Assembly (NCBI RefSeq): GCF_017352155.2
Contig: NZ_CP071462.1
Span: forward strand, 1,736,001-1,800,000
Reading direction: 5' to 3'
DNA length: 64,000 nt
Source: Haloterrigena alkaliphila
GTDB taxonomy: Archaea > Halobacteriota > Halobacteria > Halobacteriales > Natrialbaceae
Under the pieces are notes generated by a model. The model saw nothing but the letters and a program-made list of their open reading frames with translations. It was not told the DNA's origin and did no database searches. Numbering within the stretch: position 1 is the first letter of the stretch; each line of letters starts with the position of its first letter. Below are positions 26,567 to 34,350 of this stretch, in pieces. The position numbers and the translations under genes were made by a program.

Positions 26567-27160
26567 GGGTGGGAGAGAGAGCCTGGCTGCCGCGGCGGGC
26601 GCGTCGGCGACGACGCGTTCGTTCAACGTGGGCCGACTCTTCGAGTCGCCCCACGCTCTAACGTGATCCGTCCCTTCGGGACGCATCACGCATTACCGTT
26701 GCGCGTCCCGGAGGGACGGGCAACGCTCCTAACGTGGCCCATCTCTCCGAGATGCGCCACGCTCGTAACGTGATCCATCCCTTCGGGATGCATCACGCCC
26801 GCGAGGAAAGTCCCCCCACCTGTTCGGGCAGGTGACCGGACGCAAGTCCGGAGCGGGAGACCGCTGGCTCTGGAACAGAAACGACACGTCTCGGCCCGAC
26901 CGATGATGCGCGCGAACCCGACCGAGAGGAAGGGGAGTTGACCCGCAGAGGATTGCGGTCGCGAAATCGTGGTTCGAATCCACAGATCGCGCTCGTCGCG
27001 ATCGACCGCACACGGACGGCCGAGGATCGATGGAACGGCGAACCCTCACCGGTGCAAGTCCGCGCCGTGGTAGCCCGAACGCCCCGCGGCGCCGCCGCGG
27101 ACGGCGCGGACGCTCAGCCGAATGCCGGGACGAACAGAAGGGGGCTTACTCCTCTCACCC
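26567..27160 (+). ncRNA. rnpB: RNase P RNA, archaeal type A, with expanded P3
   Basis: Catalytic RNA of RNase P, which removes tRNA 5' leaders. Universal region CR I is GAGGAAAGTCC (26803-26813) and CR V is ACAGAAGGGGGCTTA (27134-27148). P1 pairs GGGTGGGAG (26567) with CTCTCACCC (27152-27160), and P2 pairs GGCTG (26585) with CAGCC (27115). About 594 nt, longer than the roughly 430 nt I remember for haloarchaea. The excess sits where P3 belongs: a basal GCGGG/CCCGC helix (26595; 26798) encloses a GCGA-tetraloop hairpin (26601-26616) and five tandem 29-nt hairpins (26627-26797). A run of Ts follows at 27163. Confidence 0.93.
26627..26797 (+). repeat. Five tandem 29-nt hairpins inside RNase P RNA
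   Basis: Hairpins at 26627-26655, 26662-26690, 26697-26725, 26733-26761 and 26769-26797. Each has 6 bp, a single 1x1 mismatch at position 7 (C-C in four, G-G in the third), 5 bp and a five-base loop. Spacers are 6-7 nt, mostly CTCNTAA-like. Sequences differ but pairing is kept by compensatory changes (for example GACT/AGTC, GTCC/GGAC, ATCT/AGAT), so structure, not sequence, is under selection. Confidence 0.9.
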
Positions 27161-27316: not shown

Positions 27317-27565
27317 CGTCCTGACGGAGTCCAACGCGAGCGATAGCGAGCGTTGGGCACGTCAGGACCGAACGCAATAGCGAGTGCTGAGCAACGCGAA
27401 GCACTCGCAACAAGTGAGCGTCCTGACGGAGATTTGAACACGCCGAGACGTTCCGGGTCGCTCACTACGTTCGCTCCCGGGCTGCGACTCGTCTGCTCAA
27501 ATCTCCGGGGAATTTCCTGCAGCACAGACCGCTCGCTACGCTCACGGTGTTGTGCTGCAGAGAAA
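27317..27565 (-). repeat. tRNA-tail modules behind tRNA-Arg
   Basis: Reading away from the tRNA 3' end: a 10-bp hairpin (27551-27560 with 27517-27526), an inverted T-arm copy (27497-27507), a 12-nt core CGAGTCGCAGCC (27480-27491), GTGAGCGA and GGAACGTCTCG (27444-27464), and a perfect 21-nt copy of the tRNA 3' end (27419-27439). A second, shorter module follows: a 9-bp hairpin (27380-27408), inverted GTCAGGAC (27361-27368), a 7-bp hairpin (27331-27356) and a 13-nt tail copy (27317-27329). The remaining gap to RNase P RNA (27161-27316) shows a coding-like fragment on the minus strand but no intact gene. Confidence 0.85.
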
Positions 27566-27638
27566 CGTCCTGACGGAGATTTGAACTCCGGTCCCTGGCT
27601 CCGCAAGCCAAGAGGATAGTCCACTACCCTATCAGGAC
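27566..27638 (-). tRNA. tRNA-Arg (anticodon GCG)
   Basis: 73-nt cloverleaf: acceptor GTCCTGA paired with TCAGGAC, anticodon stem TTGGC/GCCAG with loop TTGCGGA, and T arm CGGAG-TTCAAAT-CTCCG. No CCA is encoded, no intron. It reads CGC/CGU codons. The 3' 21 bases are copied twice downstream (see tail modules). Confidence 0.95.
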
Positions 27639-33840: not shown

Positions 33841-33913
33841 GCCGAAGTAGCTCAGATGGTAGAGCACCTCGCTGTTAACGAGGTTGTCCCAGGTTCGAGT
33901 CCTGGCTTCGGCG
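33841..33913 (+). tRNA. tRNA-Asn (anticodon GTT)
   Basis: 73-nt cloverleaf: acceptor GCCGAAG/CTTCGGC, D arm GCTC/GAGC, anticodon stem CTCGC... with loop containing GTT, T arm CCAGG-TTCGAGT-CCTGG. No intron and no encoded CCA. The 3' 21 bases recur at 34104-34124. Confidence 0.95.
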
Positions 33914-34350
33914 CTGTTTTCTCGACGAATGCTTGCGAGGAGCGGTCGCTCCGAGCAAATACGAGAGAGAAAACAGCGAGACAAACAGGACTCGAACACG
34001 CGAGTCGCAGCCAGCGAGGGATCGCAGATCCCTCGAGCAGTCGGTGTTCCGCACCGACGACCGCGCAGTGAACGAAGTGAGCGAGCAGGAACGTCTCGCA
34101 TCTGTTCGAGTCCTGGCTTCGGCGTCCGACACATATCGGAGAAATTTTCGGGCTGACTGGAACGCGTAGCGTTCCGGTCGCGCTTTTACGAAACCAACTA
34201 CTCGCGAGGAGCGATCGCTCCGAGCGAATCCAATGAGAATACCAGCGAAACCAGCCAAATTCGACCAGATACGTCCTAGTCTGGAACACAGCGAAGCGAT
34301 CATTCCAGAACGTCTGGCGTGTTCGCGTCTCGACTCCGACTTTTTCGACA
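33912..34350 (+). repeat. tRNA-tail modules behind tRNA-Asn
   Basis: Module 1: a perfect 12-bp hairpin CGCTGTTTTCTC/GAGAAAACAGCG (33912-33923; 33967-33978), an inverted T-arm copy CAGGACTCGAACA (33986-33998), the core CGAGTCGCAGCC (34001-34012), GTGAGCGA plus GGAACGTCTCG (34078-34098), then a perfect 21-nt tRNA tail copy (34104-34124). Module 2 (about 34195-34350) is decayed: it repeats the GCGAGGAGCGRTCGCTCCGAGC palindrome region and AGAACGTCTGGCG-TGTTCG. Same order as behind tRNA-Arg, but the tail copies match tRNA-Asn. No gene is credible in 33914-34672. Confidence 0.85.

Follow-up and report, generated by a model that had tools for sequence, protein, structure and literature searches.

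What is the structure behind the tRNA-Arg(GCG) gene of Haloterrigena alkaliphila, where the 3' end of the tRNA recurs in direct and in inverted orientation within two successive hairpin-bearing modules? The original prediction had placed three readings side by side, namely a small mobile satellite, a structured tRNA trailer and a self-renewing attachment site, and had held that a simple integrase scar would account for a direct copy, yet not for the inverted copy or the hairpins. The locus was analysed within a window of 64,000 nucleotides of the H. alkaliphila genome (G000:C1:1736001-1800000), and its modules were compared with those of other genomes.

The tRNA-Arg array and the anatomy of the unit

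Two tRNA genes of the window, tRNA-Arg(GCG) and tRNA-Asn(GTT), bear modules, the features of which are given below in window positions.

27566..27638, minus strand: tRNA-Arg(GCG) gene (ARAGORN and Rfam tRNA)
27586..27566, minus strand: copied segment of tRNA-Arg(GCG), its last 21 nt, G53-N73, GTTCAAATCTCCGTCAGGACG (repeat search)
27565..27513, minus strand: hairpin hp1 of module 1 (53 nt), beginning with the post-tRNA T-run; fold z -5.5 as single-stranded DNA
27507..27495, minus strand: inverted T-arm copy of module 1, CGGAGATTTGAGC (repeat search)
27440..27494, minus strand: class A core hairpin of module 1 (AGACGAGTCGCAGCC...GGAACGTCTCGGCGT), the exchangeable part
27491..27480, minus strand: core CGAGTCGCAGCC in module 1
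27465..27444, minus strand: GTGAGCGA-CCC-GGAACGTCTCG in module 1
27439..27419, minus strand: perfect 21-nt direct copy of the tRNA-Arg 3' end, closing module 1 (repeat search)
27418..27317, minus strand: module 2, whole
27380..27408, minus strand: first hairpin of module 2
27360..27370, minus strand: inverted acceptor-strand copy of module 2, CGGTCCTGACG
27331..27358, minus strand: inner hairpin of module 2
27317..27329, minus strand: closing 13-nt direct copy of the tRNA 3' end in module 2, acceptor-type, CTCCGTCAGGACG
33841..33914, plus strand: tRNA-Asn(GTT), the second tRNA of the window bearing a module
33915..34124, plus strand: module of tRNA-Asn, with hp1, inverted T-arm, class A core with extra hairpins, and tail copy
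33986..33998, plus strand: inverted T-arm of the tRNA-Asn module
34104..34124, plus strand: perfect 21-nt tail copy of the tRNA-Asn module

The predicted arrangement behind tRNA-Arg, two modules composed of copies of the tRNA end, was confirmed by the repeat search, except that module 2, a variant of 102 nt following the 147-nt module 1, repeats 13 nt of T-stem and acceptor and not the full tail, and its inverted part corresponds to the acceptor strand, not to the T-loop. The 287 nt of the array show a predicted folding z of -7.3 against shuffled sequence. The array sits between tRNA-Arg and an archaeal RNase P RNA gene that runs convergently with it (26713-27160, Rfam); tRNAs and this RNase P RNA are the only Rfam matches.

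A unit is delimited here as the stretch from just after one G53-N73 copy to the end of the next. Inside it are two hairpins, hp1, which is specific to the locus, and another in which an inverted and a direct T-arm copy form the outer arms around an exchangeable core; most units open with a T-run. Aligned with their tRNAs, 174 copies show an identity of 0.87-1.00 over G53-N73, with at least 0.94 at all but the last two positions, and one of 0.14-0.52 in the 12 positions upstream of G53; because of this sharp drop, the limits of the unit are the same for all isotypes and are set by tRNA structure. The inverted arm follows the local gene as well, matching its own tRNA at 9.96 of 12 positions against 8.60 of 12 for permuted tRNAs (z 18.5, T-loop variants included), and 131 of the 149 complete triples have the same base at T-loop position 57 in the tRNA, its direct copy and the inverted arm. 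Several of the tail copies that follow Lys, Phe and Thr tRNAs have one additional base in the T-loop (GTTCACAATC or GTTCATAATC), a change that would ruin a tRNA, and such copies recur across species (L183, L186, L189, L194, L195, L196, L198 and L207, and L061 of H. alkaliphila itself).

Distribution of tail copies and core classes

Searched with 361 nt of the tRNA-Arg locus, 40 of 41 genomes gave matches, the H. alkaliphila genome included. The core recurs at many further loci, and all 20 of those retrieved have a same-strand tRNA directly upstream, ten isotypes being represented. In a census of H. alkaliphila built on individually retrieved tRNA loci, a direct tail copy was found behind 25 of 46 tRNA genes; a looser module search returned 27 of 45 tRNAs, with 19 perfect copies and a few weakest cases that are doubtful. 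Two congeners carry the tail-copy architecture behind about 21/46 and 23/48 tRNAs, and in all three genomes the architecture is constant, lying in the sense of the tRNA and matching its own tRNA. A haloarchaeon without class B cores has tail copies at 7 of 30 tRNAs. In a control genome from another class of the phylum, no modules were detected at 31 tRNAs, its four matches being copies of neighbouring tRNAs.

The specificity of the copies was assessed at 189 tRNA loci with enough flanking sequence, many of which had been retrieved because of a match, so that the set serves as a specificity control and gives no estimate of frequency. The tRNA's own tail recurs within 700 nt downstream at 113 of these loci, compared with none for the tail of another isotype and none for a tail on the opposite strand, and therefore the tail copies are not due to chance. 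An own-tail match lies upstream at 7/189 loci, which would be expected where the tRNA gene itself has been duplicated. The tRNA-tail module architecture is real and general in haloarchaea, where it accompanies about half of the tRNA genes.

The cores fall into several classes. A gapped pattern for the class A core, scanned over 84,980 GTDB species, yielded 31 matches in 29 stretches, all from Halobacteria, and 28 of the 31 lie behind a same-strand tRNA at a distance of 55-588 nt; of the remaining three, L192 and L205 adjoin integrase genes at displaced tRNA tails, and L185 has no tail. With the covariance model of class B, 27 of the 33 genomes in the order were detected, against 0 of 164 elsewhere in the phylum, and 29 of its 30 best loci lie behind a tRNA. 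Model R1 had an RNAalifold structure without the outer arms, which MAFFT had shifted by one column, and was used only as a locator. The expectation that the core would be met behind tRNAs in related genomes was thus borne out for both classes, and its attachment to tRNA ends holds for the most part, with two copies in the H. alkaliphila genome and the one in L185 lying elsewhere. The two H. alkaliphila copies, which are class A-like cores near 958,760 (L337) and 2,425,156 (L336), have neither T-arm copies nor a tRNA upstream, and the latter seems, from the sequence, to sit next to a gene like that of ribosomal protein S10, at its 3' end.

The idea of one single element had to be given up, as the architecture is common to classes A, B, C, D and others. 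Class A motifs recur behind 14-17 tRNA types and those of class B behind 12-15, and the cores of several classes have in common an asymmetric internal loop beside the T-arm, often with AGA opposite GCGT. The only class A core found reversed between its arms is that of the tRNA-Ser(TGA) of H. alkaliphila (L167), and with this single case core inversion was rejected as a general mechanism. The modules constitute a class-wide family of tRNA-anchored, non-coding DNA cassettes in Halobacteria, with fixed limits, exchangeable cores and concerted evolution.

Gain, loss and exchange of units, and their relation to larger elements

Exactly module 1 is missing from the Arg array in seven genomes (G001, G002, G005, G006, G007, G009 and G015), where module 2 directly follows the tRNA tail, and the order of the Arg modules differs in G022. 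Near-identical tandem units occur at L312, L322 and L203. Such comparisons show that the gain and loss of units is exact, running from one tail copy to the next. Tandem duplicates of the tRNA gene inside module arrays, observed at tRNA-Asp of G001 (L256) and tRNA-Gly of G004 (L223), are as expected from unequal recombination between tail copies.

The two hairpins of a unit behave differently. The locus-specific hp1 reaches an identity of at least 0.8 in 6 of 2,515 inter-isotype pairs, the cores more often, in 56 of the 2,515. Seven pairs of modules at orthologous tRNAs have hp1 in common and cores that differ. At tRNA-Arg(TCT), alignment is lost from the inverted T-loop copy onward and regained at the direct one, and the same substitution at position 57 is present in the tRNA, the inverted arm and the direct copy. 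The tRNA and its inverted and direct copies evolve in concert.

In H. alkaliphila and G004, tRNA-Pro, tRNA-Val and tRNA-Gly carry integrated elements of 18-19 kb (L334, L338 and L339). These push aside the original tail together with the module array, and behind the displaced tail stands hp1, in most cases with inverted arm and core as well; their crossover points vary. Accordingly, the modules do not represent the ends of these elements. The element at tRNA-Pro(TGG) of H. alkaliphila (L334, 1,647,700-1,667,600) measures about 19.3 kb and carries an integrase gene at its far end, after which the displaced tail and module follow. Near 1,151,900 of the same genome, a 495-aa Phage_integrase gene (L404:430-1917) stands directly behind the two-module array of tRNA-Lys(TTT). 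The units, at about 100-200 bp, are too short for an integrase gene, and no full-length elements ending in hp1 and core hairpin with genes between them were found in three genomes.

Collections of vectors were searched in addition. The 15-mer AGACGAGTCGCAGCC is present in 84 stretches of viral contigs, none of them with arms; the class B pattern had no match in viral contigs, nor did the L205 integrase. The phage collection contained no units, and the plasmid collection yielded one megaplasmid copy, beside tRNA-Ser, and no free unit. About 30-760 nt downstream of tRNA-Ser(TGA) in G001 (L263), an AT-rich stretch (38% GC) with a 187-codon ORF on the tRNA strand takes the place of hp1 and directly precedes a class B hairpin and a perfect tail copy. 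This may be a unit with a gene, or else what is left of an integrated element; its interpretation as a gene cassette was weakened by the relative G002, which has hp1 at that place.

Proposed recombination at T-arm copies and its rivals

Maintenance of the cassettes by a tyrosine recombinase acting in trans on T-loop and T-arm copies, an enzyme whose involvement we infer, is the best single explanation, with a chance close to even. It is favoured because integrases are known to target T-arms (PMC8371274) and because the units have fixed limits, are precisely gained and lost, and exchange their cores. The T-arm would supply two half-sites around a 7-nt loop, as in a classic attB, and the recombinase would take it, along with its direct and inverted copies, as crossover sites, whereby units and cores would be inserted, deleted and swapped and the tRNA would be restored each time. 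One candidate enzyme is a chromosomal XerA-like recombinase present in all sampled Halobacteria, and integrases of resident mobile elements are others. The H. alkaliphila genome has nine Phage_integrase genes, one of which, at L405:629-1807, encodes the XerA-like protein. At E<=1e-20, this protein turned up in each of the 11 sampled Halobacteria, at 55-84% identity in those other than H. alkaliphila, and not once among 69 further genomes; this co-distribution, which separates a single clade from all others and may just reflect a haloarchaeal XerA, is a lead rather than proof. Several points tell against the recombinase: neither circles nor junctions left by excision nor an enzyme at work came to light, by itself it leaves the match of the inverted arm to the T-stem bases of its own tRNA unexplained, recombination between the 20-nt repeats or slippage could also give unit loss and tandem duplication, and the plasmid, phage and viral collections are devoid of free units. 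Of the readings in the original prediction, the small mobile unit and the renewed attachment site agree with the precise gain and loss, the tandem arrays, the core exchange and the concerted evolution. In a more far-reaching and only tentative version, the T-arms of Halobacteria would be the platforms of a genome-wide system in which a host recombinase brings in, removes and exchanges minimal hairpin cassettes at any tRNA and renews tRNA ends and attachment sites in concert, a manner that would set it apart from integrons, MITEs and integrase scars. For the cell, the units may be spare attachment sites, or they may be selfish.

That the changes need no dedicated enzyme is the chief rival reading, possible but less probable than the recombinase. 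Tail copies that undergo homologous recombination or slippage would then add and remove units, ectopic gene conversion would swap cores, and quasi-palindrome template switching would keep the inverted arm complementary to the tail. The near-identical tandem units speak for such a course, as does the polyploidy of haloarchaea, which favours gene conversion. Short repeat-bounded deletions are documented in haloarchaea, with repeat-bounded indels of 4-20 bp reported in Haloquadratum (PMC3119063). The mismatches in the module stems point the same way: on the tRNA-sense strand, G.T and A.C pairs number 156:127, compared with 97:9 in the tRNA stems of the same loci, the module counts including some conserved loop positions and coming from a pairing routine different from that of the tRNA control, and the five outer arm pairs beside the T-loop give 17:23, a symmetry suggestive of a mutational origin that is not strand-specific. 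However, the constant G53 start and N73 end across isotypes and the origin of the first unit at a tRNA would be left unexplained, and core exchange between isotypes would need homologies of about 9 nt. The absence of strand bias in the same counts disfavours selection on one folded DNA strand, and with it an integron-like process, which is improbable, in which the T-arm hairpin would be a single-stranded folded site like attC and the tRNA would correspond to attI; such a site should bias mismatches to G.T on its strand. The hairpin with inverted outer boxes and variable inner stems, the recurrent asymmetric loops (5' AGA / 3' GCGT and others), the almost fixed core polarity with its one reversal, and the tandem arrays, one unit being preceded by the 187-codon ORF, do recall integrons, but there is no GTTRRRY site, the tRNA having GTTCRA and its T-loop GTTCRANNC, and the ORF-bearing unit may be the element remnant considered above.

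The mismatch pattern fits double-stranded inverted repeats or template-switch correction, and it makes a conserved RNA trailer unlikely, as the module stems are without the excess of G.T over A.C that the tRNA stems display. The structured trailer of the original prediction, a conserved 3' part of a read-through tRNA transcript serving in termination, processing, or as guide or decoy, accordingly found no confirmation, and we give it very little probability in spite of the strong predicted folding, the constant sense orientation 3' of the tRNA and the T-run at the start of most units; whole units are lost between relatives, about half of the tRNAs carry none, and the Rfam matches are restricted to tRNAs and RNase P RNA. 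The trailers and tRNA-derived fragments of Haloferax volcanii (PMC3544259) likewise lie 3' of tRNAs or derive from their ends, whereas the haloarchaeal modules show no sign of conservation at the RNA level. Just as slight is the probability of scars of ordinary integrative elements, left as tail copies after repeated virus or plasmid integration at tRNAs and internal deletion. The 18-19 kb elements do reside at the same tRNAs, one with its integrase gene, but they displace the arrays, their crossover points vary against the fixed G53 start, and random deletions would not be expected to leave uniform, conserved cores and hairpins at dozens of tRNAs unrelated to one another. The earlier argument that the locus is more than a simple integrase scar is upheld.

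Among known systems, the tRNA-directed tyrosine integrases of the SSV, pNOB8 and SNJ2 types similarly involve a direct copy of the tRNA 3' end, a symmetric core site in the T-arm and a restored tRNA, in contrast with which the haloarchaeal units of about 100-200 bp are gene-free, include an inverted T-arm copy and conserved hairpin cores, and form arrays on about half of the tRNAs (PMC8371274). With tRNA-integrated elements they share the direct tRNA 3' copies at their ends (174 units), and they neither encode an integrase nor qualify as deletion derivatives. Integron cassette arrays also comprise tandem units at a fixed platform, hairpins with inverted boxes, asymmetric loops, a variable inner stem and a near-fixed polarity, whereas the haloarchaeal units lack the GTTRRRY box, established gene cargo (one possible case, L263, in three surveyed genomes) and single-strand bias, and any tRNA serves as platform; the XerA-like recombinase of H. 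alkaliphila matches the integron integrase model only weakly (28.9 bits, cut-off 265). Haloquadratum PATEs, MITEs and small mobile repeats are short, non-coding, palindromic and without transposase as well, but the units occur almost only 3' of tRNAs, are flanked by tails and have inverted arms that copy the local tRNA (PMC3119063). Constant terminal inverted repeats at unrelated targets, which define a MITE, are thus not seen, the arms following the local tRNA and the sites being tRNA 3' flanks. Casposons have terminal inverted repeats, a duplication of 14-15 bp and a Cas1 gene; the units have a 21-nt copy fixed at G53-N73 and no gene inside. Because integrative element, integron array, MITE and structured RNA each miss defining features, the units are filed as a variant of the products of tRNA-directed site-specific recombination. 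No earlier description of them was found in the open-access literature, subscription papers and preprints being largely outside the scope of that search.

With a repeat family seated 3' of roughly every second tRNA gene across an archaeal class, genome architecture would gain a new layer. The cassettes would account for the lasting match between tRNA ends and attachment sites, and they would complicate the calling of provirus boundaries and the annotation of tRNA 3' ends in haloarchaea. They also offer a natural test system for the mechanism of tRNA-directed recombination in archaea. Because the tRNA changes together with its inverted and direct copies, the modules might even have a part in the evolution of tRNA genes, a possibility that is open to testing.
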